Positions 1,566-13,809 of a DNA stretch of 20,285 bases are shown here, piece by piece (position 1 is the first letter of the stretch; each line of letters starts with the position of its first letter). Both the position numbers and the translations under genes were made by a program. The notes below the pieces were generated by a model, which was not told the origin of the DNA, made no database searches, and saw nothing but the letters and a program-made list of their open reading frames with translations. This DNA comes from a virus, in IMG/VR virus record IMGVR_UViG_3300047491_000652, positions 1 to 20,285 of that record, one strand, 5' to 3'.

Positions 1566-1832
1566 ATGAATATTAAAAAAATGAAAAGCAATTGTCTTTT
1601 TCAAGCGATTAAACATAGATTTAAAGGTTCCCCAATATATCGGGTTATTCCTAATCCTGATGGGCACTTACACTTTGTTTGGTGGGATTGTATAGATAAT
1701 ACTTATAAACATTTCACTTGGGGTGATAATCCAGTCGAGTTATCTAAGTTTTATTATTTCACAATATTTGATGGAAGTATTGAAAATTTCTATATAAATG
1801 ACGATTGGTATAAATTAAAATTAATAATTTAA
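1566..1832 (+). CDS. Small phage protein of unknown function (88 aa)
   Basis: I do not recognise a named family with confidence. The product is basic and aromatic-rich (HFVWWD, HFTWGDN, FYYFTIFDGSIENF), suggesting a small compact beta fold; short Firmicutes phage proteins of similar look occur next to replication genes. The ATG at 1566 has only a weak ribosome binding site. A five-codon mini-ORF starts at ATG 1559 directly upstream, so translation may depend on re-initiation after the gene ending at 1556. The TAA stop (1830-1832) is also the first three bases of a palindromic repeat element. Confidence 0.6.
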   Translation: MNIKKMKSNCLFQAIKHRFKGSPIYRVIPNPDGHLHFVWWDCIDNTYKHFTWGDNPVELSKFYYFTIFDGSIENFYINDDWYKLKLII

Positions 1833-1880
1833 TGCATAATGCAGAATTTCGGAGAACACTGTTCTCCCCTACAAGGGAAA
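1830..1880 (+). repeat. Palindromic repeat 1, class B (GGAGAACA/TGTTCTCC)
   Basis: Left flank TAATGCATAATGCAGAATTTC, core palindrome at 1851-1867 (8-nt arms around a central C; the outermost G of the class is missing), right flank CTACAAGGGAAA. Its first TAA is the stop of the preceding gene. Confidence 0.85.
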
Positions 1881-1905
1881 TTATAAATAAAAAGGGGTGA
1901 TTTTA

Positions 1906-2109
1906 TTGATTTATTGTAAATATTGTAAAAAGCCGATAAGGTTTATTAAAAGAAAGGGTGGCTTTAGTATATGCTGCAATTTTAATGCGGTATATATTCG
2001 CCCTGAGAAGGATAAAAATGTATATTTTAGTTCATCTGGAATGAAACATGAGGGTGTTATTGTAAGTGATGGTATAAAGGTTTTTCAACCACATATTTGC
2101 AATAGGTAA
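1906..2109 (+). CDS. Small Cys-rich (zinc-ribbon-like) phage protein (67 aa)
   Basis: I choose TTG 1906 because AAAGGGGTG (1891-1899) then sits at normal distance; the in-frame GTG at 1897 lies inside that ribosome binding site. The product has Cys4-x2-Cys7 at its N-terminus, a Cys-Cys pair near residue 23 and a His-x-Cys at the C-terminal end (residues 63-65), so it may bind one zinc. The middle has the short beta-strand pattern (VYIRPEKDKNVYF, then a Gly-bearing turn) seen in small early phage proteins. Function is unknown. Its TAA stop is the first three bases of repeat 2. It probably belongs to the transcript of the surrounding early genes. Confidence 0.6.
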   Translation: MIYCKYCKKPIRFIKRKGGFSICCNFNAVYIRPEKDKNVYFSSSGMKHEGVIVSDGIKVFQPHICNR

Positions 2110-2156
2110 TGCAGAATTGCGGAACGACGAGTGCGTCGTTCCCTACAAAAGGAAAT
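2107..2156 (+). repeat. Palindromic repeat 2, class C (GGAACGACG/CGTCGTTCC)
   Basis: Left flank TAATGCAGAATTGC, core 2121-2142 with 9-bp arms around loop AGTG, right flank CCTACAAAAGGAAA. It forms a pair with repeat 3. The TAA is the stop of the gene before it. Confidence 0.85.
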
Positions 2157-2162
2157 GTGGGG

Positions 2163-2199
2163 TTTCGGGAGAACACTGTTCTCCCCTACAAGGGGAAAT
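2163..2199 (+). repeat. Palindromic repeat 3, class B (GGGAGAACA/TGTTCTCCC)
   Basis: Core 2167-2185, preceded by TTTC and followed by CCTACAAGGGGAAA. It is the start of a 72-bp segment (2163-2234) repeated almost exactly at 4358-4428 in front of the large terminase gene. Confidence 0.88.
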
Positions 2200-2234
2200 G
2201 TAGAAATAAAAAAGGATGGTGGTTTGGTTTGGAA
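2163..2234 (+). repeat. Duplicated repeat-plus-leader segment, copy 1
   Basis: This 72-bp stretch matches 4358-4428 with one indel and two substitutions by eye. It holds repeat 3, its AAGGGGAA tail and the leader AAAAAGGATGGTGG-TTTGG-TTTGGAA that leads into the next gene. It ends two codons into the gene starting at TTG 2229, whereas copy 2 ends at the first base of the terL start codon at 4428. Confidence 0.85.
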
Positions 2235-2465
2235 CCAATTAAAAAGAAAAAGCGAACACGAAAGGCTTGTGACCAGCTTTGCTGGAGCTGTATACATAGT
2301 GTACCAAATTATGATAGGACGAGGGGCTGTGAATGGTCGATTAAGTTTATTCCTGTTCCTGGTTGGTTTGCTAAAAAAAGAGTTATTAAATGCAATGATT
2401 GGGACGAGGAAACAGTTTATTATAATATAATGAAATGTCCTAAATTTGAATTTGGGAATCCGTGA
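2229..2465 (+). CDS. Small Cys-rich phage protein (78 aa)
   Basis: I place the start at TTG 2229, behind the GGATGGTGG leader; the upstream in-frame ATG at 2109 would make repeats 2 and 3 coding and has no ribosome binding site. The product starts with a basic stretch (KKKKRTRK), then Cys14-x3-Cys18-x2-Cys21, Cys34-Glu-Trp-Ser, PVPGW near residue 44, and a closing YNIMKCPKF with Cys70. The order CW-x-C, C-x-W-S, PV-x-GW, Y-x-(I/V)-x-x-CP-x-F matches a small zinc-finger-like protein I recall from clostridial phages, of unknown function. It lies among early genes just before the replication-initiator-like gene. Confidence 0.7.
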   Translation: MEPIKKKKRTRKACDQLCWSCIHSVPNYDRTRGCEWSIKFIPVPGWFAKKRVIKCNDWDEETVYYNIMKCPKFEFGNP

Positions 2466-2520
2466 ATAATGCATAATTTTGGGTTTTCGGGCGAACACTG
2501 TTCGCCCCTACAAAGGGAAT
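2466..2520 (+). repeat. Palindromic repeat 4, class A (GGGCGAACA/TGTTCGCCC)
   Basis: Left flank ATAATGCATAATTTTGGG, then TTTTC, core 2489-2507, right flank CCTACAAAGGGAAT. It is the one copy after a gene whose stop (TGA, 2463-2465) is not part of the flank; it is paired with repeat 5. Confidence 0.88.
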
Positions 2521-2530
2521 GCGTGTTGTG

Positions 2531-2565
2531 GAATTTTGGAACGATGATTGCATCGTTTGCAACAA
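2531..2565 (+). repeat. Palindromic repeat 5, decayed class C
   Basis: Core 2538-2559: arms AACGATG (2540-2546) and CATCGTT (2551-2557) with loop ATTG. The outer two pairs of the class are lost (GG against TG) and the tail reads GCAACAAAAA instead of CCTACAAGG, so this looks like an eroded copy. Confidence 0.65.
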
Positions 2566-2591
2566 AAAAAATAAAATGAGGTAAATTAAAT

Positions 2592-3443
2592 ATGGCTGGT
2601 AGAAAAATAAAAAACGGTAATTTCTATTGGTCTATAGAGTGTGATTTTTTTAATCAAAATGAAATAAGGCTTTTAATGTTGGATGGCGGTTGTGATGCAG
2701 TTTGTATATATTTATATTATTGCAATCGTTGTCTTAGTAATAGTTTCTTTGTTGTTTTTGACGAGATTGAGTGTAAGACCACTCAGCATCTTTTTGGATT
2801 CAGTGAGGAAAAGGTAAAAACCTTGTTAGAATACTGTTTTAAATGGGAGCTTTTTGATAGGCAACTGTTTAAGATGGCTAATATCTTAACAAGTGTCATA
2901 ATACAACAGAAATTTCAAGATTGTTTTTCTAATCGTGGAAAGACAAGAAGTATAGAAGTTTTTGATTTTTACTGGCTACTAGATAGTGACAATACCTATA
3001 GCTTTATTTCGTTATGCTCTTTAGATTATTTTATAGAAAAAAATATAGATTATTTCGGAAAAAATACCAATTATATTAGAAATAATTATAATTATTTTTC
3101 TAATATAATAAATAGAAATAAAAATATTATTAATAATAAAGAAATAGCTTCGCCTCATTCATTTATTTATGATGATGAGGATGAAGAGGAATTAACACCA
3201 AAGCTAATATTAAGAAGACCACCTACAGATGAAAATTTAGCATCTAAAATTAAAAACCATATAGAAGAGAATATTGATGAGGGTGAAAGTGAAACAAATG
3301 AAATGGGTTTAACTGCTGATGAATATTTAGAGATAATAGCAGAGGTTAAGAAAAAATATAATTATCATACTCATCAAAAGGAATACTATAATGAGCTAAC
3401 TAGATTATCAAAAATAAAGAGGGAAGAGAAAAGAGGGTATTAA
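2592..3443 (+). CDS. Replication initiator/replisome organizer-like protein (DUF4373, Lin1244 type)
   Basis: The N-terminal 110 residues fit the DUF4373 (Lin1244/Lin1753 N-terminal) pattern: YWSIECDFFNQNEIRLLM, CDAVCIYLYYC, then LFGFSEEKVKTLLEYCFKWELFDRQLF and ILTSVIIQQKF. In related phage proteins this winged-helix-like part is followed by a DnaD-like part and the whole acts in loading the replication machinery at the phage origin. Here the C-terminal half (about 155-283) is low complexity with Asn/Ile-rich and acidic runs, so no DnaD domain is evident. Start ATG 2592 follows GAGGTAAATTAAAT. It is the last gene before a terminator and the packaging module, the usual place for such a gene in Firmicutes phages. 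Confidence 0.65.
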   Translation: MAGRKIKNGNFYWSIECDFFNQNEIRLLMLDGGCDAVCIYLYYCNRCLSNSFFVVFDEIECKTTQHLFGFSEEKVKTLLEYCFKWELFDRQLFKMANILTSVIIQQKFQDCFSNRGKTRSIEVFDFYWLLDSDNTYSFISLCSLDYFIEKNIDYFGKNTNYIRNNYNYFSNIINRNKNIINNKEIASPHSFIYDDEDEEELTPKLILRRPPTDENLASKIKNHIEENIDEGESETNEMGLTADEYLEIIAEVKKKYNYHTHQKEYYNELTRLSKIKREEKRGY

Positions 3444-3460
3444 CTGCCCTCTATTTTTTT
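3432..3460 (+). terminator. Intrinsic terminator after the early module
   Basis: The arms AGAGGG (3432-3437) and CCCTCT (3447-3452) can be extended inward by two weaker pairs. They are followed by a run of seven T (3454-3460). The left arm lies in the last codons of the gene and its TAA stop (3441-3443) is in the loop. Confidence 0.75.
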
Positions 3461-3493
3461 AAATATTTTTTTATAAAAAAAACGATATTAGTT

Positions 3494-3536
3494 GTGACCT
3501 ATTAAAAGTCACTTGGTTAGTGATAAAAATGGCATT
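3494..3536 (+). promoter_or_regulatory. Overlapping inverted repeats upstream of the packaging operon
   Basis: GTGAC (3494-3498) can pair with GTCAC (3508-3512); the same GTCACT can instead pair, as TCACT (3509-3513), with AGTGA (3519-3523). A further palindrome, AAAAATG-G-CATTTTT, begins about 3525. These lie in the 177-bp gene-free gap. They could be operator sites or a mutually exclusive pair of RNA hairpins; the sequence cannot decide. Confidence 0.35.
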
Positions 3537-3553
3537 TTTTGATATAAAAATTT

Positions 3554-3582
3554 ATGACAGTTTTTTTTAAATGTGTTATATA
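3554..3582 (+). promoter_or_regulatory. Candidate promoter for the packaging/head genes
   Basis: ATGACA (3554-3559) lies 17 bp before TATATA (3577-3582), with an overlapping TATAAT at 3583-3588. It is placed after the terminator at 3460 and about 35 bases before the terS start, where a late promoter is expected. The region is very AT-rich, so chance matches are likely. Confidence 0.4.
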
Positions 3583-3620
3583 TATAATTAAAATTTTAAA
3601 AGAAAGTGAGGTGAGCGAAA

Positions 3621-4292
3621 ATGAATGACAAATATTATGATGAAGTTGTAGAAAACAACGGTGTTTTAAATGCAGAATCAGAAGAGGTTTGTTTCGGGGA
3701 AAATGTCGGAAATGAAGTTTATGAAATGCAGAATACAGGCGAACACTGTTCGCCCCTACAAGGCAATATTGATATATCAGAGAAAGAGAAAAGGTTTTGT
3801 GAAAATTATATAAATTGTAACAATATATACCAGGCAGCGGTGGATGCAGGCTATGAAGAGAGTTATGCAAAAGCTAGAAGCTATACATTTTTGCAAAAGC
3901 CTCATATAAAAGCATATTTGGCATCATTATCAAAAATAATAACAGATGATAAGATAATGAGTGCAAGAGAGGTCTTAGAGCTTTGGAGCAATATTGCAAG
4001 GGGAACTTTGCAAAATCCAAATGCGTTGCCTAAAAATTTATATAATGCTATTGATAAAAAATATAATGCTGACCAAATGACCTTTGATCAGTTGGTTACA
4101 GAGGATAAGGGTTATTTTATTCCTGACGAAGTGAAAATTCCTTTAGGGGCGAGGTTAAAAGCATCTGAGCTTATTGCAAAGAATTTGGAAATGCTTACAG
4201 AAAAGCAAAATATCAATATTAGCATCAATGAGGATTTGGCAAGCTTGACCGATGAGGAATTAAAGGAATATTTGAAGAAGGTTGTTAAATAA
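3621..4292 (+). CDS. terS: Terminase small subunit (Terminase_2 type) with a repeat-derived insert
   Basis: The small terminase subunit recognises the phage DNA packaging site and guides the large subunit to it. Residues about 51-100 carry the Terminase_2 helix-turn-helix pattern: ISEKEKRFCENYINC, IYQAAVDAGYEESYAKARSY, then a KPHIKAYL helix. A central part (about 110-185) and a charged C-terminal helix (LASLTDEELKEYLKKVV) follow, as usual for oligomerisation and contact with TerL. The first 50 residues are a non-conserved extension, and residues 36-48 (MQNTGEHCSPLQG) are encoded by a copy of the palindromic repeat, so the repeat became coding sequence. The start ATG 3621 follows GTGAGGTGAGCG. 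At 223 aa it is somewhat longer than many members. The TAA stop begins repeat 7, and terL follows. Confidence 0.85.
   Translation: MNDKYYDEVVENNGVLNAESEEVCFGENVGNEVYEMQNTGEHCSPLQGNIDISEKEKRFCENYINCNNIYQAAVDAGYEESYAKARSYTFLQKPHIKAYLASLSKIITDDKIMSAREVLELWSNIARGTLQNPNALPKNLYNAIDKKYNADQMTFDQLVTEDKGYFIPDEVKIPLGARLKASELIAKNLEMLTEKQNINISINEDLASLTDEELKEYLKKVVK
3726..3764 (+). repeat. Palindromic repeat 6, class A, in frame inside terS
   Basis: ATGCAGAATACA, core 3738-3754 (GGCGAACA-C-TGTTCGCC; the outer G of the class is an A here), then CCCTACAAGGC. It is read as MQNTGEHCSPLQG, residues 36-48 of TerS, upstream of the helix-turn-helix. Confidence 0.88.
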
Positions 4293-4334
4293 TGCAGAAT
4301 TCGGGCGAACACTGTTCGCCCCTACAAGGGGAAT
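4290..4334 (+). repeat. Palindromic repeat 7, class A
   Basis: TAATGCAGAATTC, core 4303-4321, then CTACAAGGGGAAT. The TAA is the terS stop. It is paired with repeat 8, 59 bp downstream from core to core. Confidence 0.9.
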
Positions 4335-4340
4335 ATAAAA

Positions 4341-4393
4341 TAATACATAATGCAGAATTTCGGGAGAACACTGTTCTCCCCTACAAGGGGAAT
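4341..4393 (+). repeat. Palindromic repeat 8, class B
   Basis: TAATACATAATGCAGAATTTC, core 4362-4380 (GGGAGAACA/TGTTCTCCC), then CTACAAGGGGAAT. Confidence 0.9.
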
Positions 4394-4428
4394 ATAGAAA
4401 TTAAAAAGGATGGTGGTTTGGTTTGGAA
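4358..4428 (+). repeat. Duplicated repeat-plus-leader segment, copy 2
   Basis: Near-identical to 2163-2234: repeat core, tail, and the leader AAAAAGGATGGTGG-TTTGG-TTTGGAA. Here the segment ends at the ATG of terL, so the duplicated sequence supplies the translation leader of the large terminase. Confidence 0.85.
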
Positions 4429-5915
4429 TGACTAGAGAGCAGTTATTGATACTTGCTAGCGAGATCAAAAGGCGAGAGGATGAAAAAAATAAGAATAAGC
4501 TATTATGCTATAATACTGATCCTACTATGCTACATAAAAAGCAAATTGAATTTCATAAATCTGCTAAAAGAAATAGATGGAATTTTGGGGGGAATAGAAC
4601 TGGTAAGACTGTATCGGGAGCTGTTGAGGCTGTTTGGTATGCTAGGGGAAATCATCCTTATAAAAAAATTGATAAGGCTAAAAATGGTTGGGTGGTTTCT
4701 CTTACAAATGAAGTACAGAGGGATGTTGCTCAAAAGGAAATACTAAGGTGGCTTAATCCTGATTGGATTGTTTCAGTTGCAGCAAGAAGGGGACGAAGTG
4801 ACGATTTAGAGAATTGTATTTTAGATTTTATAACAATTAAAAATATTTTTGGGACAACCTCTCGCATTGGTTTTAAAAGCTGTGACCAAGGGCGAGGAAA
4901 GTTTCAAGGGACAAGCTTAGATTATATTTGGTTTGATGAAGAGCCCCCAAAGGAAATATATGACGAATGTAAAATGCGTGTATTTGATACTAGTGGCGAT
5001 ATGTGGGGCACTATGACACCGTTAATGGGTCTTACTTGGGTTTATGATGAAATATATAAGAATGAGCTAGCTGACTCTGAAATCGAATATAGATTTTTCC
5101 AATGGGAAGATAATCCTTATTTATCTAAGGATGAAATAGAATATTTAATTGCAACAATGCCAGAAAAGGAAAGAGAGGCAAGGCAATATGGAAGATTTAT
5201 TAATTTATCTAGTGCTATGTTTCCTGAATTTAACGAAGAGATACATATCTGCAAGCCTTTTAAAATTCCTACAGACTGGAAAAGGTATTATGTTAATGAT
5301 TATGGCTTTGATATGTTTGCAGGGCTTTGGGTAGCTGTTGATTATGATAAAAATGTTTATATATACAACGAAAAGCATATAGCTGATTTACTTATATCAG
5401 AGGCAAGTGAACAGATACTAGATTTTGAAAAGATTGAGGAAATTAATAATAATTATAAATTTAAGTATACTCGCTATTGTCCGCCTGACTTTCGGAAACG
5501 GTCTCATCAAAATGGAGTTACTTGGTATGATACATTTTTTGATAATGGAATTAATTTTATTGAGGCTTCAAATAAAAGAGAATATGGCTGGAGCTGTATA
5601 AGAGAAATGATGAAGGTAATAGAGATAGTTGATCCAGTTACAGGACAAACCTATAAAACAGCAAAGCTCAAGATATTTGATAATTGCGAGGTTTTAATAG
5701 AGCATTTACAAAAAGCTTTACGAGACCCAAAAAATAAAGATGATATTTTAGATAAAACAGATGGTGACCATTATATTACTCATATATTAGATGCTTTAAG
5801 ATATTTCTGCATTAGTTGGTATTCAGCACCAGCAAGACCAAAGGAAGAGGTATCAGAGGCAATTAAATATAAACAAAAATTATTAAAAAAAATGAAAGGA
5901 AATATTTATGGTTGA
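4428..5915 (+). CDS. terL: Terminase large subunit
   Basis: This is the ATPase/nuclease motor that pumps DNA into the prohead through the portal. Counted from ATG 4428 (495 aa), Walker A is GGNRTGKT at 54-61, Walker B is LDYIWFDEE with the acidic residues at 170-172, and the coupling motif is MTPLMG soon after. The nuclease half starts near NDYGFD, continues with LWVAVDYDKNVYIYNEKH and ends with DHYITHILDALRYF, giving the expected acidic metal ligands of an RNase H-like fold (Terminase_6 type). An in-frame ATG at 4410 is less likely since AAAAAGG touches it without spacing; 4428 lies 11 bases after GGTGG. The stop overlaps the next start by 8 bases (ATGGTTGA). Confidence 0.93.
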   Translation: MTREQLLILASEIKRREDEKNKNKLLCYNTDPTMLHKKQIEFHKSAKRNRWNFGGNRTGKTVSGAVEAVWYARGNHPYKKIDKAKNGWVVSLTNEVQRDVAQKEILRWLNPDWIVSVAARRGRSDDLENCILDFITIKNIFGTTSRIGFKSCDQGRGKFQGTSLDYIWFDEEPPKEIYDECKMRVFDTSGDMWGTMTPLMGLTWVYDEIYKNELADSEIEYRFFQWEDNPYLSKDEIEYLIATMPEKEREARQYGRFINLSSAMFPEFNEEIHICKPFKIPTDWKRYYVNDYGFDMFAGLWVAVDYDKNVYIYNEKHIADLLISEASEQILDFEKIEEINNNYKFKYTRYCPPDFRKRSHQNGVTWYDTFFDNGINFIEASNKREYGWSCIREMMKVIEIVDPVTGQTYKTAKLKIFDNCEVLIEHLQKALRDPKNKDDILDKTDGDHYITHILDALRYFCISWYSAPARPKEEVSEAIKYKQKLLKKMKGNIYG

Positions 5916-6159
5916 TATTAAAAAGGTTGACAATGGTGTCAAATGCTCTAGAAATGGCTGTAGGGCTAGAGGTATCTATGTTATACATAATGATACTGAT
6001 TGCTTTTATCCAAAGCAGTATATTTGCAAAAGCTGTGCTGATATGATAAGCGGAATTCATAAAAAAGAATTGCGGGCGAACACTGTTCGCCCCTACAAGG
6101 AAGTTGATGTGAAAGCTAATGAGGATGAGGCAATTCAAGGCACATTTGAAACGATATAA
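5908..6159 (+). CDS. Small zinc-finger-like protein with repeat-derived C-terminal segment (83 aa)
   Basis: I do not recognise a named family. The first 45 residues hold Cys13, Cys18, Cys32 and Cys40-x2-Cys43 (CSRNGC, then YICKSC), with an intervening short beta region, so a small treble-clef or zinc-ribbon fold is likely. Residues 54-65 (ELRANTVRPYKE) are encoded by a class A palindromic repeat read in a different frame from the copy in TerS. The last 18 residues are acidic. Start ATG 5908 follows AAAGGAAAT and overlaps the terL stop by 8 bases, which implies translational coupling. Small zinc-binding proteins are often found between terminase and portal genes, but the role is unknown. Confidence 0.65.
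   Translation: MVDIKKVDNGVKCSRNGCRARGIYVIHNDTDCFYPKQYICKSCADMISGIHKKELRANTVRPYKEVDVKANEDEAIQGTFETI
6067..6101 (+). repeat. Palindromic repeat 9, class A, in frame inside a gene
   Basis: GAATTGC, core 6074-6092, then CTACAAGG. It is read as ELRANTVRPYKE. It is a single copy without the full TAATGCA left flank; the shortened flank keeps the frame open. Confidence 0.88.
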
Positions 6160-6174
6160 AAGTGGGGTGAGATT

Positions 6175-8088
6175 ATGCAGGGTAATGAAATTTCAGAGCT
6201 AGAGCAACAAAAAATTAAGGAAGCAAATAGAAATCCTTATACTGATCCAGAATTTTACAAAGAGGTTGTTAGCTTTGTTACAAATGAATTTGAGACAAGA
6301 AAAGAGCAAAGAAAGGTTACAGAGCTTAAATGGCAGTTATATTATAATTTTTATAAGGGCAATCAGCATTGCTTTATAGATAATTATAAAAATAAAATTA
6401 TTTTAAAAGATTTAGAGAATGAGAATATAAATAATTCTATTTACAATAATATTGCTCCAATTGTCGATACAAGACGGGCCCAGCTTAGACAGCTTAATAA
6501 AAATATGACTGTGTTATCTGCGACAAGTGAAAATGAAGATATTATTAATGCAGAAATTTCATCACATATCCTAAAAAATACTTATGACAAATTAAAATTT
6601 GATAAGGATTTGGTATTAGCATCTGATTGGGCAGAGATAACAGGCACAGCATTTATTAAATCTTGTTGGGATAAATATGCAGGCGAGGTTGCAGGCGAGG
6701 TTGAAGGTGAGGTATTAAGACAAGGCGAAATTTCTACAAGTGTTGTTAGTTGCTTTGAGATATATCCCGAGAATTTAGAAAAGGAAAATTTATATGACCA
6801 AAATTCACTTATTCATGCTAAGCTTATGAGTCGTGATGAAATATTTAAAAAGTATGGAATTGAGATTAGCGGCAGCTCAAATGAGATTTATAATTTTAAT
6901 ATTGAATGTAATTTAAATAATAATTCTGAGCTTCAGTATTTACAGGATAGTGCAATTGTAAAAGAATATTATGATCTTCCCGATAGATTTTATCCAAATG
7001 GAAGATTTATAACTGTTATTGAAGATAAAATGCCTGTATATGCTAGCTTACCTTTTATTAATTCTGATAATGGAAATAGAACCTTCCCTTTTGTGAAAAT
7101 AGATTGTATTCGGGTACCAGGTCAATTTTTCTCAGATAGCATCATAGAGAGACTTATATCAGTTCAAGAAAGCTATAACAATACTAATAATGCTATCAAT
7201 ACATTTTTAGACTATACAGCGATTGGAGTTCCTATTATTGAAGAAGACAGTGTTGAGAATGAAGAGGATATTGTAAATAATGGGTTTTCACCAGGACAAC
7301 TTATTATTTTAAAAAATGGACGAACCGCACCACGATTTCTTCAGATGAACAATTTGCCAGGTGAATTTTTCGGAATGAAAAAGGATTTAGAAAATAGCTT
7401 TAATATAATTTCGGGAGTTTCTGAGATTAGTAGAAATAGCTCAGCACCGGCAGGGGTTAATTCTGGGGTTGGTATACAGTTACTTCAACAGCAAGAGGAT
7501 ACAAGAATTTCACTGACTGGCAAAAATATTTTAGATGCGTTAGGGGAAATTGGTCAGCAATGGCTATATTTATATAAACAATTTGCTACAACCTCTAGAG
7601 TTGTTAGGGTGACTGGAATTAATTATTCGATATCTAAGCAGTGGACAAAGGATATTATTACAAGCTTTGATGTCAAGGTGGCTGATGATAATAATATGTT
7701 TTCTAATTCTGCTATGACAAGAGAGCTTGCAGTAAATTTTAGGGATAATGGCATTATCAATCAAGATAAGTATTCAAAATTGATGTTTGTATCAGTTTTC
7801 CAAAATGGCGATATCAATAAGCTTTTCCAAAATGAGTTTTTAGATATTAAGAATGCGGAAAAGGAAAATTATAAGTTTAAGGATAATAAGGAGTTACCTA
7901 TTCTAAGAAATGAGGATGATCACGAGCTACATTTGCAGGTACATAATCATTTAAGAAAGGGTGATTGGTTTAGAGATTATCTTTATGAAAAAGAACCAGA
8001 ATTGGCGGAGCAATTTAATGAGCATTGCAAACAGCATCAGATTGCAATTGATAGTATGAAGCAGGCAGAGTGCAATCAAAATTCATAA
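6175..8088 (+). CDS. Portal protein (podovirus, P22-like)
   Basis: The portal forms the dodecameric ring at one vertex through which DNA enters and leaves and onto which the tail is built. At 637 aa it is in the size range of podovirus portals. Support: the pattern YNNIAPIVDTRRAQLRQLN, DWAEITGTAFIKSCWD, a region around IDCIRVPGQFFSDSIIERL with QESYNNTNNAINTFLD (typical portal stem/crown helices), VSEISRNSSAPAGVNSGVGI, and the C-terminal ELHLQVHNHLRKG, which I associate with P22-type portals. A short GEV repeat lies near residues 163-173. Start ATG 6175 follows GTGGGGTGAG. It lies between terminase and scaffold as expected. Its TAA stop begins repeat 10. Confidence 0.88.
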   Translation: MQGNEISELEQQKIKEANRNPYTDPEFYKEVVSFVTNEFETRKEQRKVTELKWQLYYNFYKGNQHCFIDNYKNKIILKDLENENINNSIYNNIAPIVDTRRAQLRQLNKNMTVLSATSENEDIINAEISSHILKNTYDKLKFDKDLVLASDWAEITGTAFIKSCWDKYAGEVAGEVEGEVLRQGEISTSVVSCFEIYPENLEKENLYDQNSLIHAKLMSRDEIFKKYGIEISGSSNEIYNFNIECNLNNNSELQYLQDSAIVKEYYDLPDRFYPNGRFITVIEDKMPVYASLPFINSDNGNRTFPFVKIDCIRVPGQFFSDSIIERLISVQESYNNTNNAINTFLDYTAIGVPIIEEDSVENEEDIVNNGFSPGQLIILKNGRTAPRFLQMNNLPGEFFGMKKDLENSFNIISGVSEISRNSSAPAGVNSGVGIQLLQQQEDTRISLTGKNILDALGEIGQQWLYLYKQFATTSRVVRVTGINYSISKQWTKDIITSFDVKVADDNNMFSNSAMTRELAVNFRDNGIINQDKYSKLMFVSVFQNGDINKLFQNEFLDIKNAEKENYKFKDNKELPILRNEDDHELHLQVHNHLRKGDWFRDYLYEKEPELAEQFNEHCKQHQIAIDSMKQAECNQNS

Positions 8089-8129
8089 TTCATAATAACG
8101 GGCGAACACTGTTCTCCCCTACAAGGGAT
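8086..8129 (+). repeat. Palindromic repeat 10, class A/B hybrid
   Basis: TAATTCATAATAAC, core 8100-8118 with left arm GGGCGAACA (class A) and right arm TGTTCTCCC (class B), then CTACAAGGGA. The hybrid has one C-T mismatch at exactly the pair that separates the two classes. Confidence 0.88.
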
Positions 8130-8164
8130 ATTATAAGTCAAAAAGCCAAACGATTGGGAATTTG

Positions 8165-8204
8165 AATAATAACGGGCGAACACTGTTCGCCCCTACAAAA
8201 AAGG
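8165..8204 (+). repeat. Palindromic repeat 11, class A
   Basis: AATAATAAC, core 8174-8192, then CTACAAAAAAGG. It is paired with repeat 10 in the portal-scaffold gap and ends next to the scaffold ribosome binding site (GGAAGG). Confidence 0.88.
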
Positions 8205-8218
8205 AAGGATAAAAGGAT

Positions 8219-9220
8219 ATGAAAAAATTTAAAATTAATTTACAGCTGTTTGCTGAACCGACACAACCACAAGAAGATATAAACGAGCTTTTAAAAGCTT
8301 TCGATGGTATGAATGGCAATTCTGATGATAATCAGGAGCCGTTAGATACACAAGAGCCCCCAAGTGGGACAACTCTTGAAAGCGAGGAAATGAATTTAGA
8401 AGGTGGCGAAAATGAGCCCCCAAGTGGGACAACTCAAGAGCCATCAACACAAGCTGAACCAATAGAAACGAATGAGCCCCCAAGTGGGACAACTCAAGAA
8501 CTTTTACTTGGAAAGTTTAAGACGGTTGAGGATCTAGAAAAGGCATATCAAGAAAGCCAAAGCTTACTTGGGAAGCAAGGCAGTGAGCTTGGCGAGTATC
8601 GAAAGATGCTACAAAATAATCAACTAAATATGGGAATAACAAATATTCCTAATCAAAGCGAGGATGTATTCGAGCAAATGGACGATGAGGATTTAGTTAA
8701 TTCTTTTCTGACAAATCCAAAAGGATTTTTAAAAGGATTTCTAGAGCTATCAAAGGGCGAAATAGTACAAAGCACAAAAGCAGAGCGAGAGCGAGACGAG
8801 TATATTCAAAAGTTTTTCAATGACAATTCTGATATAAATTATTTAAAAAATGATTTTATGGAATTGTTTGAAAAGACAAAGGACCCTGAGTTGTCTTTGT
8901 TGGCAGTAAGAGGAAAAAGTACAGGTAATTTAGATAGCTTACTTAAAAATGAAAGCTTTGTTTCAAAAAACTTTAGCAATGATAATCTTAAAAAGCTTTT
9001 TGAAAATGAAAATATTTTAAATAGTATTGCATCAAATTTACCTGAGAAAATTAAAAACGATATTATCCAAGAGTATGTAAAAACCTTAAAGGAAACCAAA
9101 GCACCTGAAATGCTTGGCAAGAATAATGGGTCAACTGCAAAATTGCCGCCTAAACAATATAGTAATTTTGGTGAGGCTTTTGATGATAATGTTTCGTTTT
9201 TAAAAAATTATAACAAATAA
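8219..9220 (+). CDS. Scaffolding protein
   Basis: Scaffolding proteins guide assembly of the procapsid and leave before DNA enters. The N-terminus MKKFKINLQLFAE matches the LNLQLFA motif common at the start of scaffold or capsid proteins in Firmicutes phages. The first third is acidic and Pro/Thr-rich, with three copies of EPPSGTT spaced by exactly 20 residues; from about residue 98 (LLGKFKTVEDLEKAYQESQ) the sequence is helical and charged with likely coiled coil, ending in PPKQYSNFGEAFDDNVSFLK. High charge, lack of a catalytic signature and its place between portal and major capsid protein all support the call. Start ATG 8219 lies behind GGAAGG/AAAAGG. The length (333 aa) is ordinary for the class. 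Confidence 0.8.
   Translation: MKKFKINLQLFAEPTQPQEDINELLKAFDGMNGNSDDNQEPLDTQEPPSGTTLESEEMNLEGGENEPPSGTTQEPSTQAEPIETNEPPSGTTQELLLGKFKTVEDLEKAYQESQSLLGKQGSELGEYRKMLQNNQLNMGITNIPNQSEDVFEQMDDEDLVNSFLTNPKGFLKGFLELSKGEIVQSTKAERERDEYIQKFFNDNSDINYLKNDFMELFEKTKDPELSLLAVRGKSTGNLDSLLKNESFVSKNFSNDNLKKLFENENILNSIASNLPEKIKNDIIQEYVKTLKETKAPEMLGKNNGSTAKLPPKQYSNFGEAFDDNVSFLKNYNK
8354..8374 (+). repeat. In-gene 21-bp element, copy 1
   Basis: GAGCCCCCAAGTGGGACAAC plus T; encodes EPPSGTT. It is more GC-rich than its surroundings, with a small inverted core CCCA-AG-TGGG. Copies 2 and 3 lie exactly 60 and 120 bases downstream. Confidence 0.9.
8414..8434 (+). repeat. In-gene 21-bp element, copy 2
   Basis: Identical to copy 1 over 21 bases; identical to copy 3 over about 29 bases including the preceding AAT and the following CAAGA. 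The spacer after it differs from the spacer after copy 1. Confidence 0.9.
8474..8494 (+). repeat. In-gene 21-bp element, copy 3
   Basis: Third identical copy, encoding EPPSGTT, just before the conserved helical part of the scaffold protein. Confidence 0.9.
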
Positions 9221-9234
9221 AAAATTAAGAAAGG

Positions 9235-9252
9235 CACATTTTAAATAATGTG
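9235..9252 (+). promoter_or_regulatory. Hairpin in the leader of the major capsid gene
   Basis: CACATT (9235-9240) and AATGTG (9247-9252) form a 6-bp stem with loop TTAAAT, directly before AAAAAAGG (9253-9260), the capsid ribosome binding site. No T-run follows, so it is not a terminator; a stabilising or translation-modulating leader hairpin is possible. Confidence 0.35.
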
Positions 9253-9268
9253 AAAAAAGGTATTAAAA

Positions 9269-10426
9269 ATGAATTTTGATATTACAGCGGTAAATGCACT
9301 GCTCAAAGAAAAGGTTGCACCACAGGTTGCAAACCAAATTAGCGATAATATTTCGCCTTTTTATGACGAAATAAAAAACAATACTATTGCCGGGGGCGGT
9401 AAAGGATATTTTGAGCCAATCCAGCTTGGTATCAATGGCGGTGTTGCGTTTAGCGGCGAGGTCAATACACCTGAGGCACAGGTTAATCCTCTTGACAGAT
9501 TTAAGGTTGATACTAAAAATTTATTCGGAGTTATGGGTATCACTGAAAAGCTTTTAAGACAAGGTAATGCAGAATCAATCGTAAACCATTTTGGTTGGGA
9601 ATCTCAAAAGCTTGTTGAATCTATTAAGTTTAACAAAAAAAGAGCTATTGAGGGCGGTAGTGACGGAACTTGTGCATTAGCAGATGGAGCTGTTGATGAT
9701 GATTATGATGTTGTTGTTGATAACACCAATAGGCTTGAGGTTGGTATGTTTGTAACATTTTACGATGCAGCAACTAAAGCGAAAATCACAACTCACGAGA
9801 TTAAGAAAATAGATGAGGATACCTTAACTATTACACTTGCAACAAAGGTATCTTGTGGGGATGGCGATATCATTACTAATGTTGATAGTTATGGTTTGGA
9901 ATTGACTGGCTTAAATGACATTTTCAAAAATAACAATACTATTTATGGTATTGATAGAACTGACATTAGTGCTTTGCATCCTTACATAAAAGCTAATTTT
10001 GGGGCTGTTTCTGATGAGGGCATAAATCTTGCAATACAAAGAATAGAAGGTAGAAGAAATGTTAAAATCAATTTTATATTGATGGCTTATGATGTTCAAA
10101 ACTTCTATATGGCATATACCAAAGGCGTTGGACAATTTGTGCAAAGCTTAGAGCTTAAAGGTGGATTTAAAACAATAAGCTTTAATGGTATTATTCCGAT
10201 GGTATCATCTCGCTTTGCTCCTAACGGACAAATGGATTTACTTGATACTAAGACCTTTAAATTTGTGGAGCTTGGAACACCTAGCTTTATGAATACTGGG
10301 AACGGTATTTTAGATAAAATTCAAAATGCGGCTGCTTACCAAGCTACCTTCTGCGATTTCACAGAGCTTTATTGCAATAAGCCAGGCGGACAAGGTAGAT
10401 TAACTGGGGTAACTGCTTCGGTTTAA
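9269..10426 (+). CDS. Major capsid protein (HK97 fold, P22 coat-like)
   Basis: This is the coat subunit of the icosahedral head. Evidence: place right after the scaffold, length 385 aa, a helical N-terminus (LLKEKVAPQVANQISDNISP), a FEPIQLGINGGVAFSGE strand region, GVMGITEKLLRQGNA with the following long helix as in HK97-type spine helices, and a late A-domain-like part (INLAIQRIEGRRNVKINFIL, GVGQFVQSLELKGGFKTISFNGIIP). Residues about 150-205 (RLEVGMFVTFYDAATKAKI, TLTITLATKVSCGDGDII) look like a small beta-barrel inserted in the fold, comparable in position to an insertion domain. Start ATG 9269 follows AAAAAAGG. The G+C is higher than in neighbours, as expected for a heavily translated gene. 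The TAA stop begins repeat 12. Confidence 0.85.
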   Translation: MNFDITAVNALLKEKVAPQVANQISDNISPFYDEIKNNTIAGGGKGYFEPIQLGINGGVAFSGEVNTPEAQVNPLDRFKVDTKNLFGVMGITEKLLRQGNAESIVNHFGWESQKLVESIKFNKKRAIEGGSDGTCALADGAVDDDYDVVVDNTNRLEVGMFVTFYDAATKAKITTHEIKKIDEDTLTITLATKVSCGDGDIITNVDSYGLELTGLNDIFKNNNTIYGIDRTDISALHPYIKANFGAVSDEGINLAIQRIEGRRNVKINFILMAYDVQNFYMAYTKGVGQFVQSLELKGGFKTISFNGIIPMVSSRFAPNGQMDLLDTKTFKFVELGTPSFMNTGNGILDKIQNAAAYQATFCDFTELYCNKPGGQGRLTGVTASV

Positions 10427-10467
10427 TGAAGAATAACGGGCGAACACTGTTCGCCCCTACAAGGGAA
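10424..10467 (+). repeat. Palindromic repeat 12, class A
   Basis: TAATGAAGAATAAC, core 10438-10456, then CTACAAGGGAA. The TAA is the stop of the capsid gene. It is directly joined to repeat 13. Confidence 0.9.
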
Positions 10468-10504
10468 TGCGGAACGATGAGGGCATCGTTCCCTACAAGG
10501 TAAT
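10468..10504 (+). repeat. Palindromic repeat 13, class C (GGAACGATG/CATCGTTCC)
   Basis: Core 10471-10492 with 9-bp arms around loop AGGG, then CTACAAGGTAAT. Compared with repeat 2 one stem pair changed from C-G to T-A, keeping pairing. Confidence 0.88.
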
Positions 10505-10506
10505 TA

Positions 10507-10541
10507 AATACGGGGAATGTTTTGTCGTTCCTCGTATTTTT
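10507..10541 (+). terminator. Intrinsic terminator-like hairpin after the capsid gene
   Basis: AATACGGGGAA (10507-10517) pairs with TTCCTCGTATT (10528-10538) through 11 pairs including one G-U; the loop is about 10 nt and the right arm runs into five T (10537-10541). It probably reduces or ends transcription between head and tail genes. Confidence 0.65.
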
Positions 10542-10558
10542 AAAAAAAAGGTGGCAAT

Positions 10559-10921
10559 ATGAGGGTTAAGGTTAATACTAATGTTTATTATATTCCTGAG
10601 AGAATTAAGGAAATAGATAGCAATTGGGATGTATATTATAACAAAAAGACTGGTAATTTTGAAATACATAATAAAAATAGAGTTTTAGGCAGAAAAAGTA
10701 TTGTAATGTATTTGCCTTTTATTAGTTTAGATGCTAGGGCAATTACATATATACATAAAACCATCAAGCAAAATAGGGATATTGAAATTGAGTATAGAGA
10801 AATGCAAAGGCATAATCAAAAGCTTGAAGAAAATAATCAGAAAAAGCAGGCTGACCAAATACAATATCAGACAAAGGAAGTATTTCGGCATATTGATCAT
10901 AATCCTAGTAGGTTTATTTAA
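10559..10921 (+). CDS. Unknown small virion-region protein with coiled coil (120 aa)
   Basis: I do not recognise the family. The first 60 residues look like short beta strands (MRVKVNTNVYYIP, WDVYYNKKTGNFEIHNK), reminiscent of a small beta-sheet domain; the second half (HKTIKQNRDIEIEYREMQRHNQKLEENNQKKQADQ) is very rich in Gln, Asn, Glu and Lys and should form one long helix or coiled coil. It ends HNPSRFI. The start ATG 10559 follows AAAAAGGTGGCAAT. It lies between the capsid gene and the adaptor-like gene, where podoviruses often carry a small head or assembly protein. The TAA stop is the first three bases of repeat 14. Confidence 0.65.
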   Translation: MRVKVNTNVYYIPERIKEIDSNWDVYYNKKTGNFEIHNKNRVLGRKSIVMYLPFISLDARAITYIHKTIKQNRDIEIEYREMQRHNQKLEENNQKKQADQIQYQTKEVFRHIDHNPSRFI

Positions 10922-10964
10922 TGCAGAATTTCGGGCGAACACTGTTCGCCCCTACAAGGGAAAT
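10919..10964 (+). repeat. Palindromic repeat 14, class A
   Basis: TAATGCAGAATTTC, core 10933-10951, then CTACAAGGGAAAT. The TAA is the stop of the gene before it; a single, unpaired copy. Confidence 0.9.
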
Positions 10965-10984
10965 ATTATTAAGGGGGTGTTGGT

Positions 10985-11530
10985 TTGACAATAGCATCTT
11001 TACAAAATTTAGTTATAAATAAGCTTGGGTATGATGTTACTATTGATTTTATACGAATGTATTATAATGAATGTATTGACTGGATATATAATGAGTATCC
11101 TGATTACTTTACACTTGAGAAGGAATTAGATATTGTTATAACTAAAAATAATCTTATTTATACATTACCAGTTACATATTCAAGGATAATTAATGTATAT
11201 AGAATTAGTAGTAATAGGTATTTTGATTATAATGATTATAAAATAATTTTAGGGAAAATTCATTTTAATGATTATGGTGATTATAAAATTGTATTTACTT
11301 CAAAGCCAAGCTATAATAATGACAATAATGAGCTTCTTGATATTAATGACAATTTTATTAATGCTATTTGCTATTATATTATGTATCAAGAGAATAAGAG
11401 AAATAAATATGATAGCAATGCCACAAAGGAATATTATGAGCTATTTAAGGTATTTTTAGAATCTGCTATAAAATTTTTAAGCGGTAGCAAGAGGCGGATG
11501 AGTTTTATACCGAAGAGGAAAGGTATATAA
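10985..11530 (+). CDS. Head-tail adaptor-like protein (P22 gp4 position)
   Basis: The 181-residue product begins with a helix-rich segment (TIASLQNLVINKLGYDVT, FIRMYYNECIDWIYNEYPDYFTLEKELDI), then strands (LIYTLPVTYSRIINVYRI, GDYKIVFTSKPSY), and a C-terminal helix pair (NFINAICYYIMYQENK, TKEYYELFKVFLESAIKFL). This helix-strand-helix layout, with a conserved-looking LP before R-I-x-x-V-Y, is what I associate with phage head-tail adaptor/connector proteins such as P22 gp4, which bind under the portal ring. The order capsid, adaptor, gp10-like fits too. The start is TTG 10985 with ribosome binding site AAGGGGGTG. Assignment rests on pattern and position, not on a search. Confidence 0.6.
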   Translation: MTIASLQNLVINKLGYDVTIDFIRMYYNECIDWIYNEYPDYFTLEKELDIVITKNNLIYTLPVTYSRIINVYRISSNRYFDYNDYKIILGKIHFNDYGDYKIVFTSKPSYNNDNNELLDINDNFINAICYYIMYQENKRNKYDSNATKEYYELFKVFLESAIKFLSGSKRRMSFIPKRKGI

Positions 11531-11560
11531 TGCAGAATGCAGAATTGTGGGATTGCGGAA
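11528..11560 (+). repeat. Repeat remnant 15 (left flank without core)
   Basis: TAATGCAGAATGCAGAATTG then TGGGATTGCGG, which matches the flanks of other copies (compare 13739-13753) but stops where the palindrome should begin. The TAA is the stop of the gene before it. Confidence 0.6.
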
Positions 11561-11582
11561 ATAATAAAAAGGGGGTGATTAG

Positions 11583-13676
11583 TTGGTTAAGGTGGTAAGG
11601 GATTTTAGCGGTGGTTTTAATGATACTGTGAATCCTATTAATTTAAAGGATAATGAATATTGTGAGCTTAAAAATTTAGATAATCTATATGGCGGTGGTG
11701 TTAGTGTTCGCAATGGTACTAAGAAGATTAATACAGTAGCTTTTCTTGCAAATATAGAGCAGATTATTGAATGGCCTTTAAAGACTGGAGTAACTAAGAC
11801 AATTGTTGTATCTGATTATAAGATATACGAATTTAATTCTGCAAGTGGCGAATATTTTTTATGCACTTTACAGAATGGTAATGCACTTACTTTACAAAGC
11901 AGTACAATAAGCTATAGTTTTTTTAAGGATTATTTTTATTTTACTGATGGAACACAATTTTATAAGTGGAGCGATGAATATTTTTATAGGACGAAAAACA
12001 ATCAAACAATACCTTTAAATAGTAAGGTTAAGGTAAATATTTCACTAGACGATTATAAAAGAAGTAGCTTGCCAAATGGTGTAACAAATAAAACTGGTGC
12101 AATGATTAATGATTTTGTAGGGACTGAGGATATTACAACACAAAATGTACGTGATGGTTTTGGTTTGCCAATGGGTACTGTTTCTTTAGGCTTAATTGTT
12201 GATAATATTAATTATTTGTATAGTTTACACTGCACTGACAGTTATTCTTTAAATTATAGTTATTTAGGTATCCCTTTTAGATTTGATAGTTTTACTAAAG
12301 AAAATAAAATTATCAAAACACCATACGCAGGAAATATAAATTATAAATTAAGAAATGGTATTTATATAAATGTTTATAATAATGTTATTCAGCATAATGC
12401 AAATAAAATTGCAGAGGTTGGAAAGACATATAAATTTAAATGGGATGGCTCAAATCAGACTACAACTTTAAATTTACATACTAATTTACTTAATACAAAT
12501 CAATTTGAATTGTTGGCTGATAATTATACTGATATAACTGCAATAAGTATTTATGGAGTTACTGCAGGGACTGGTACTTTAAATGATAATATCAGAAAAT
12601 GCAAATATTTTGTTTATCATCCACAAAGCTTTAGGTTTTTTGCAAGCGGAAATCCAGACGACCCGACAGCTGTATATTATTCAGAGGTTAACAGTATGGA
12701 GCTTTGGCTTAATACCTCGGTGTTTTATCCTCGTTTTAATTTAGGGCTTGTAAATGATTTGATTATTGTAGGGGATTCTGTTATTGCTTGCTACTACAAA
12801 GGCTTTACAAGTATTTCTGGAACTTCTATAACTGATTTTATTTATAAAAATATTTCGGTACCTTTTGGAATTGATAATTCAAATACCTTAGAGCTTGTGC
12901 CAAGTGGCATTATATTTTATACGAATGAAAAGCTTTATTTATTATCTAGCACTTTATTTGATAGCAATTATGTGAAGATACCAGGCAATCAAGAATATTC
13001 TGAAATTTCAAAAAATAGAGTTGAGAATATTTTAAAGGGTTCAAGCGGACATTATGGTGTATATCATAATGACAAATATTATCTAAGCTTTCAAAAGAAC
13101 AACGAAAATTTTATGCTTGTTTATGACTTTTACAAAAATCATTTTCTTATTTATTCTGGAATTGCTTTTAAATGCCTTTTATCAAAGCAGAGTAATAAGC
13201 TCATCGGGGCAAGCGGTGTTAATATATTGGAGCTGTATAGCAATGATTTAATTGGTGATTATGTTGATGGTGAAACTGTTGCTACTACGTTTCACTTAAA
13301 GTCAAAAATATTTGATTTTTCAGAAGAATATAAGAAAAGTATTTTAAGTAAATTTTTTATAACATTTTTTACTTCAAACAAGGATACTTCTATATTTAAT
13401 GATATTAAAATTGTTTTTTATGGCGATGGCGAAATTAAGGAAGAGATTTATGAATTAAAAGAGGATATAAACAATTCGCTCAGTTATACGATAAGCCAGT
13501 TTTTCACAAATTACAGTTTTAATAAGTTTCAATTTGAAATTATATCAAATAATTTAAATTTATTAGAGAAAATAATATTTTATGATTTTGGAATGGATTT
13601 AAATGTAACAAGCGAAAATGCAAATAATTATAGCAATAATAAGAAACGAAATGATTTTTTGCCTGTGGAGTATTAA
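11583..13676 (+). CDS. Tail tube/nozzle-type protein (P22 gp10-like DNA stabilization protein)
   Basis: The 697-residue product starts RDFSGGFNDTVNPINLKDNE and goes on ELKNLDNLYGGGVSVRNGTKKI, an N-terminal pattern common to podovirus tail hub or packaged-DNA-stabilization proteins. The rest is almost all beta strand with repeated aromatic turns (IEWPLKTGVTKTIVVSDYKIYEF, YSFFKDYFYFTDGTQFYKW, KCKYFVYHPQSFRFFASGNP, then DPTAVYYSEVNSMELW), consistent with a beta-propeller-like nozzle body. The segment HPQSFRFFASGNPDDPTAVY is a typical signature as I remember it. It would plug the portal/adaptor channel after packaging. Start TTG 11583 follows GGGGGTGATTAG. Its TAA stop begins repeat 16. Confidence 0.65.
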   Translation: MVKVVRDFSGGFNDTVNPINLKDNEYCELKNLDNLYGGGVSVRNGTKKINTVAFLANIEQIIEWPLKTGVTKTIVVSDYKIYEFNSASGEYFLCTLQNGNALTLQSSTISYSFFKDYFYFTDGTQFYKWSDEYFYRTKNNQTIPLNSKVKVNISLDDYKRSSLPNGVTNKTGAMINDFVGTEDITTQNVRDGFGLPMGTVSLGLIVDNINYLYSLHCTDSYSLNYSYLGIPFRFDSFTKENKIIKTPYAGNINYKLRNGIYINVYNNVIQHNANKIAEVGKTYKFKWDGSNQTTTLNLHTNLLNTNQFELLADNYTDITAISIYGVTAGTGTLNDNIRKCKYFVYHPQSFRFFASGNPDDPTAVYYSEVNSMELWLNTSVFYPRFNLGLVNDLIIVGDSVIACYYKGFTSISGTSITDFIYKNISVPFGIDNSNTLELVPSGIIFYTNEKLYLLSSTLFDSNYVKIPGNQEYSEISKNRVENILKGSSGHYGVYHNDKYYLSFQKNNENFMLVYDFYKNHFLIYSGIAFKCLLSKQSNKLIGASGVNILELYSNDLIGDYVDGETVATTFHLKSKIFDFSEEYKKSILSKFFITFFTSNKDTSIFNDIKIVFYGDGEIKEEIYELKEDINNSLSYTISQFFTNYSFNKFQFEIISNNLNLLEKIIFYDFGMDLNVTSENANNYSNNKKRNDFLPVEY

Positions 13677-13740
13677 TTCATAATTCATAATGCATAATTC
13701 ATGATTGCGGGCGAACACTGTTCGCCCCTACAGGGGAAAT
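13674..13740 (+). repeat. Palindromic repeat 16, class A, with long AT flank
   Basis: Left flank is an iterated TAATTCATAATTCATAATG-type sequence, core 13709-13727, then CTACAGGGGAAAT. The TAA is the stop of the gene before it. It is paired with repeat 17, 42 bp from core to core. Confidence 0.9.
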
Positions 13741-13775
13741 GTGGGATTGCGGGCGAACACTGTTCGCCCCTACAC
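13741..13775 (+). repeat. Palindromic repeat 17, class A
   Basis: GTGGGATTGC, core 13751-13769, then CTACACAAAAA. It is the last copy in the window; none follows in the remaining 6.5 kb. Confidence 0.9.
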
Positions 13776-13809
13776 AAAAATACATTAAAAAAAGAGAGGA
13801 GTTTATATT

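Follow-up and report, generated by a model that had tools for sequence, protein, structure and literature searches.

The virus record analysed here raises the question of what the short palindromic repeats behind nearly every gene of its packaging and capsid block are, and how they came to be there. The window, that is, the whole stretch of DNA that was analysed, comprises the 20,285 bases of a linear virus record in IMG/VR and has a G+C content of 32%; its packaging and head block contains the small and large terminase subunits, a P22/SU10-type portal protein and a major head protein. We consider it likely that the repeats are clostridial GTAG-tagged REPs of two stem classes that entered an ancestor of this phage, and that a RAYT of the host very probably mobilised them in trans.

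A pattern scan of both strands of the whole window identified 13 class 1 cores with at most three mismatches to GGGCGAACACTGTTCGCCCCTACA, starting at positions 1850, 2167, 2489, 3737, 4303, 4362, 6074, 8100, 8174, 10438, 10933, 13709 and 13751; their consensus is GGG[C/A]GAAC-ACT-GTTC[G/T]CCC-CTACA. In addition, there are two class 2 hairpins (2121-2146 and 10471-10496), which combine a different stem and a 4-nt loop with the same CTACA foot (GGAACGAYG-loop-CRTCGTTCC-CTACA), a decayed class 2 copy at 2538, GGAACGATGATTGCATCGTTTGCAACA, and a remnant at 11529, where only the flank AATGCAGAATGCAGAATTGTGGGATTGCGGAA is left, with no core. The total, 16 cores and one remnant within 1837 to 13796, is identical to that given in an earlier note on this DNA; that note described one family, and while its 16 cores are real, they fall into two stem classes (Table 1). 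The family tops the repeat list of the window, where dispersed near-identical 24-nt repeats far exceed chance. Two sets of in-frame repeats were also observed in coding sequence: a 36-bp unit (NNNNPFKATTPA) in three tandem copies at 13900-14017 in ORF 13810-15570, and an EPPSGTT motif present three times with 60-bp spacing at 8336-8500 in the putative scaffold ORF 8219-9220.

The stems of the copies in the window are 8-9 bp long and the loops 3-4 nt. Twenty-two columns of the core are invariant and the flanks drift; the left flank AATGCAGAATT is common to about half of the copies and the right flank AAGGG to most. In three cores a C-G pair is changed to A-T on both sides of the stem, and overall 98% of the stem cells are paired, as opposed to 42-55% when the two sides are slid by 1-3 columns. 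CTAC, which is GTAG on the opposite strand, directly follows the stem in 15 of the 16 cores; the decayed copy (2538) has lost it. Seen from the opposite strand, the elements are made up of GTAG and an immediately adjoining hairpin (stem 8-9 bp, loop 3-4 nt). The + strand carries every copy, as the earlier note had stated in saying that all copies point with transcription. No true copy was found on the - strand of the window, where the matches are the same palindromes reversed and lack the CTACA foot. Tandem copies are spaced 42, 59 and 74 nt apart and are all direct.

Table 1. Repeats and main genes of the packaging and head block, in window coordinates
Feature	Position	Strand	Remark
REP class 1, GGAGAAC-ACT-GTTCTCCC stem, with left flank	1837..1880	+	directly 3' of the stop of ORF 1566-1832
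REP class 2, stem GGAACGACG-AGTG-CGTCGTTCC, CTACA foot	2107..2152	+	TAATGCAGAATT flank from the stop codon of ORF 1897-2109
REP class 1, A-T variant stem	2160..2195	+	within a longer duplication shared with 4349-4428
REP class 1	2468..2520	+	3' of the stop of the ORF ending at 2465
Decayed REP class 2 (GGAACGATGATTGCATCGTTTGCAACA)	2534..2564	+	repeat list
Terminase small subunit, Terminase_2 domain	3621..4292	+	holds an in-frame REP
REP class 1 in terminase small subunit gene	3724..3763	+	in frame, encodes TGEHCSPLQG, N-terminal to the Terminase_2 domain
REP class 1	4290..4332	+	TAATGCAGAATT flank from the terS stop codon
REP class 1, A-T variant	4348..4391	+	tandem with the 4290..4332 copy, 59 nt apart
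Terminase large subunit (Terminase_6N)	4410..5915	+	profile match
REP class 1, in frame	6061..6102	+	C-terminal part of ORF 5908-6159
Portal protein (P22/SU10 type)	6175..8088	+	profile match
REP class 1, one stem mismatch	8087..8127	+	12 nt past the portal stop
REP class 1, second copy of the portal-scaffold junction	8161..8200	+	pattern scan
Major head protein (phrog_14242)	9269..10426	+	profile match
REP class 1	10424..10465	+	12 nt past the major head protein stop
REP class 2, stem GGAACGATG-AGGG-CATCGTTCC	10466..10501	+	CTACA foot
REP class 1	10919..10961	+	TAATGCAGAATT flank from the stop codon of ORF 10559-10921
Remnant with left flank but no core	11528..11560	+	3' of the stop of ORF 10985-11530
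REP class 1	13689..13736	+	3' of the stop of ORF 11583-13676
REP class 1, tandem second copy	13738..13775	+	42 nt from the previous copy

Fourteen of the 16 copies lie in non-coding DNA, which makes up 6% of the window (1,219 bases) according to a hand-made gene set (binomial p about 1e-15). At eight of the nine repeat-bearing junctions, including that of the remnant, the stop codon is TAA with a T after it, and this codon is also where the repeat's left flank (TAATGCAGAATT and variants) starts; TAAT is found at none of the eight repeat-free junctions (Fisher p 0.0004, for a comparison chosen after the sequences had been seen). The two copies inside genes are both in frame: in the small terminase the copy precedes the Terminase_2 domain, and in ORF 5908-6159 it lies in the C-terminal part. 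Read in the + direction, the core contains no stop codon in any frame; in reverse, GTAG gives TAG in one frame.

A GC-rich stem-loop behind most genes of a block might also be a transcription terminator mistaken for a repeat. We reject this reading, which is improbable in the extreme, because no U-tract lies 3' of the stem on the coding strand (CTACAAGGG) and a terminator scan calls none of the copies on the + strand; a proper terminator-like site lies elsewhere, at 3432-3452. This likely intrinsic terminator has the replication-type ORF 2592-3443 on one side and the small terminase gene on the other, and its junction, of 177 nt, is the sole long one without a REP.

Another reading is that the repeats serve the phage as RNA elements: a hairpin about 12 nt past the stop of each late gene would block 3'-5' decay of the mRNA or separate the translation of neighbouring genes, with REP DNA perhaps as the raw material, and would be kept by selection. 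The spacing agrees with this, since the hairpin starts 11-12 nt past the stop codon at five junctions, although two copies lie inside genes. The + strand folds with -12.8 to -19.4 kcal/mol (z-scores -1.96 to -4.58), but the hairpins match no Rfam family. Moreover, the stem is kept by paired changes; such compensatory change, however, is equally expected for a DNA hairpin bound by a transposase. REPs in general are known near ORF 3' ends and are believed to be transcribed. Taking these points together with those on relatives and orientation given below, we regard an RNA role as unlikely.

The repeats match a known kind of element. GTAG-tagged REPs are defined by GTAG at the foot of a palindrome (PMC3733652; PMC8266576), and the repeats in the window have GTAG in this position, a palindrome of about 20-40 nt with a short loop, and compensated stem variants. 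They share with the elements described by Di Nocera et al. 2013 (PMC3733652) a short-looped palindrome of 6-13 bp with GTAG beside its foot, subfamilies whose stems differ by complementary changes, and a location close behind stop codons, with occasional in-frame genic copies and both tandem and single copies; the known habit of being mostly extragenic and near gene 3' ends is likewise seen in the 14 non-coding copies. They differ in that they lie in a phage structural operon, in one orientation and without any inverted pair. In the main text of PMC3733652, neither Firmicutes or Clostridia nor copies carried by phages are mentioned.

The core itself was found in chromosomes of Clostridia. An exact scan of 84,980 species genomes detected the 27-nt core-plus-flank pattern (core with AAGG) in three Clostridia assemblies, and whole-genome searches allowing at most three mismatches gave 283 core copies in G002, 89 in G001 and 149 in G401, with no match to a reversed-pattern control in any of the three. 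The core is thus dispersed in Clostridia genomes, which supports the earlier statement that such repeats are usual between chromosomal genes and unusual in phages. Searches with core-and-flank patterns in three orders and a sample of one class found no chromosome with the phage's flanks around the core, and no plasmid matched the repeat pattern. As in the GTAG-tagged REPs of PMC3733652, chromosomal copies of this core in Clostridia also pair head-to-head: in G002 they are mostly inverted pairs about 71 nt apart, which is the REPIN form. REPINs and BIMEs consist of the same core elements, and inverted pairs also occur in the virus contigs L298, L301 and L303; the window contains no inverted pair and hence lacks the REPIN arrangement. 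The virus is a putative phage of gut-type Clostridia, and its repeats are a known kind of element in an unusual carrier and location, being numerous and pointing one way in a phage structural operon.

In Clostridia, these REPs are associated with a RAYT transposase. G424 contains an ORF of 162 residues with the HUH motif MPNHIHMI that is flanked and interrupted by five REPs carrying the window's core or close variants; it matches NCBIfam REP_Tyr_transpos (E 3.5e-19, yet below the curated cut-off) and TnpArep of PDB 4er8 (E 4.7e-6). Related RAYTs are present in G001, G348 and G401, and in 55 of 391 sampled Clostridia. Twenty-six RAYT loci were examined, and 21 of them have two or more REP-type hairpins within about 500 nt, many inside the gene. 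Most stems belong to the two classes also seen in the phage, one of 8 bp with a loop of 3 nt and the other of 9 bp with a loop of 4 nt; several loci carry this second type as GGGACGATG-TGGG/AGGG-CATCGTCCC. A RAYT accompanies the core in four of the six core-bearing genomes and is present in 51 of the 385 others, which is more co-occurrence than expected (Fisher p 0.004); the remaining two have no close RAYT, and G002, the richest carrier of the core, has distant Y1 transposases only. A PF01797 search had suggested that G401 and G001 have no transposase, a result overturned by the clostridial RAYT query.

The arrangement resembles the REPtrons of TnpA-REP/RAYT subclass 2.4 (PMC6006769), for which REPs lying within the transposase gene and leaving its frame intact are typical. 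In-frame genic copies, as in the window, are a known trait of REPs. The clostridial RAYT genes likewise have their own REP inside and flanking them, and the clostridial REPs have three G-C pairs at the base of the stem; the difference is that the phage fragment contains no RAYT, and the subclass is placed by description, not by a model. A cognate RAYT flanked by the window's core is thus seen in G424 and not in the window fragment, where none was found, so that the REPs of the window would depend on a host enzyme. A RAYT search of viral_contigs gave only 13-residue matches, which were discarded. The earlier note had proposed looking for a RAYT/TnpA-type transposase in the host; such an enzyme is indeed tied to these REPs in the Clostridia genomes examined.

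The closest relatives are the prophages L314 and L315, which share the gene order, with 65% identity in TerL and 49% in the portal protein. The same kind of scan found no REP in either of them, and none in 262 kb from 18 more distant relatives; the search for the core in related phages that the earlier note had called for therefore returned no copies. Since the REPs are absent from the closest related phages, they were acquired and are not ancestral. The junctions that carry them are also longer than those of L314 and L315, with the reservation that stop-to-start gaps depend on the chosen start codons: 117 nt versus -8 and -8 between terS and terL, 130 nt versus overlaps between portal and scaffold, 132 nt versus 74 and 74 between the head protein gene and g13 (13-14 in L048 and L050), 63 nt versus 30 and 11 between g13 and g14, 52 nt versus 10 and 14 between g14 and g15 (remnant), and 133 nt versus 14 and -14 between g15 and g16. 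The REP-free gap between g16 and g17 is 12 nt, versus 16 and 29. Relatives of the same gene order thus manage without the hairpins, which counts against an RNA role. L314 (G472:C18) and L315 (G529:C95) reside in clostridial genomes of 1.4-1.5 Mb, both with a RAYT gene, and are a possible guide to the host group.

Carriage of REPs by phages recurs, yet exact scans of 2.9 million contigs show it to be rare; among the virus contigs examined, only the window has many copies all pointing one way. The exact core-plus-flank patterns had no match in viral_contigs; a flank-based pattern matched two unrelated GC-rich contigs, which were ruled out as having no REP. In L303, a phage contig that encodes a terminase, a P22-type portal and capsid proteins, the junctions around the terminase (10111-12476) hold inverted REP pairs with mixed stem types. 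L302 has several REPs with related stems in and near the gene 3' of the portal, and prophage L324 has two REPs between terminase and portal, pointing with the genes. The GC-rich (57-59%) contigs L298 (1-13414) and L301 (4431-8075) are loaded with REP-like hairpins of unlike stems, most of which form inverted pairs separated by a few nt. The 13.4 kb of L298 hold over 20 of these hairpins, together with a Mu-type transposase and an AAA ATPase; L301 has a GpA-type terminase. Two GenBank records named 'Bacteriophage sp.', L106 (MT836789.1) and L107 (MT838908.1), hold single core copies and were set aside because they look like bacterial chromosome fragments, with genes for uvrA, a CPBP protease and a solute-binding protein as judged from ORFs only.

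The orientation of the copies requires separate consideration. The nine loci of the phage share a single direction (two-sided p 0.004), and the earlier note took this uniformity to favour an RNA-level role or insertion linked to transcription. As an argument for an RNA-level role it fails: the palindrome forms an identical mRNA hairpin either way, so that one orientation is neither needed for nor evidence of such a role. The orientation tally that the note had suggested, run in Clostridia chromosomes with genes called by a simple longest-ORF rule, shows that single REPs between co-directional genes lean against gene direction (7 same versus 36 opposite in G401, p 9e-6, or 6 versus 28 by 300-bp clusters; 1 versus 9 in G424), whereas paired copies in G002 are symmetric (16:16). 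There is no universal rule that ties REP orientation to transcription. GC skew as a proxy for the replication strand was uninformative in G001, G002 and G401; in G424, 13 of 14 copies lie on the C-rich strand, although the sample is small. With strand-specific insertion into single-stranded DNA at the fork, polarity could differ between phage and chromosome; a uniform orientation would likewise result if copies were made within the phage.

Such copying forms part of a further alternative, in which recombination or gene conversion multiplied one or a few founding REPs in the phage lineage, their orientation and flanks being copied with them; the repeats may then act as short homologous boundaries for gene exchange between phages. 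Shared flanks extend beyond the REP at most sites (AATGCAGAATT left, AAGGG right), but they drift far more than the cores. The single orientation of the nine loci and the tandem copies would be accounted for, whereas the presence of two stem classes would not, and no recombinant partner phage was found. A REP and the gene-start region behind it, a stretch of about 75 nt, occur twice, at 2154-2234 and 4349-4428, with 93% identity over the 42 nt 3' of the copies at 2154 and 4349; together with the shared flanks, this duplication favours some copying. As a full account we find spread within the phage rather doubtful, but it may hold in addition to a REP origin rather than instead of it.

The core is identical to that of chromosomal REPs, those REPs are linked to RAYT genes in Clostridia, and the syntenic relatives have tight junctions and no REP, all of which points to host-type REPs that entered the phage. 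The earlier interpretation holds in part: such repeats are usual between chromosomal genes and unusual in phages, but orientation as evidence for an RNA role is not supported. In the mechanism that we propose, a host RAYT (TnpA-REP, an HUH tyrosine single-strand transposase) would mobilise the REPs in trans, a process that in the cited literature is a hypothesis with biochemical support and not a directly observed event. The REPs would have inserted into the phage ancestor mostly just 3' of stop codons, presumably the site of least harm, and some would then have multiplied locally, giving the direct tandem copies and the copied 75-nt stretch. We infer that RAYT did the copying, that this occurred in the phage's host, and that the uniform orientation arose from strand-biased insertion or copying within the phage and not from an RNA function. 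Two observations run counter to REP insertion: chromosomal REPs often form inverted pairs, whereas the phage copies are all single or direct tandem, and both stem classes lie between similar flanks in the phage, which insertion of bare REPs does not explain.

REPs are usually treated as chromosomal elements, and a phage with 16 of them whose nearest relatives have none shows that REPs can enter phage genomes. The analysis also describes clostridial RAYT-REP pairs, which are little covered in the cited REP literature. More speculatively, and against the odds, the phage could be a carrier whose replication makes host REPs accessible to single-strand transposition, with entry on one strand only; the junction repeats would have been co-opted as protectors of late mRNA 3' ends or as recombination boundaries, and phages would multiply REP families and ferry them between hosts. 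The phage is a compact natural record of insertion, in which the choice of sites directly behind stop codons, the strand and the tolerance of capsid and packaging genes can be read. If its one-way orientation reflects strand-specific insertion, phages would offer an in vivo readout of the movement of REPs by RAYT, a movement itself unproven.
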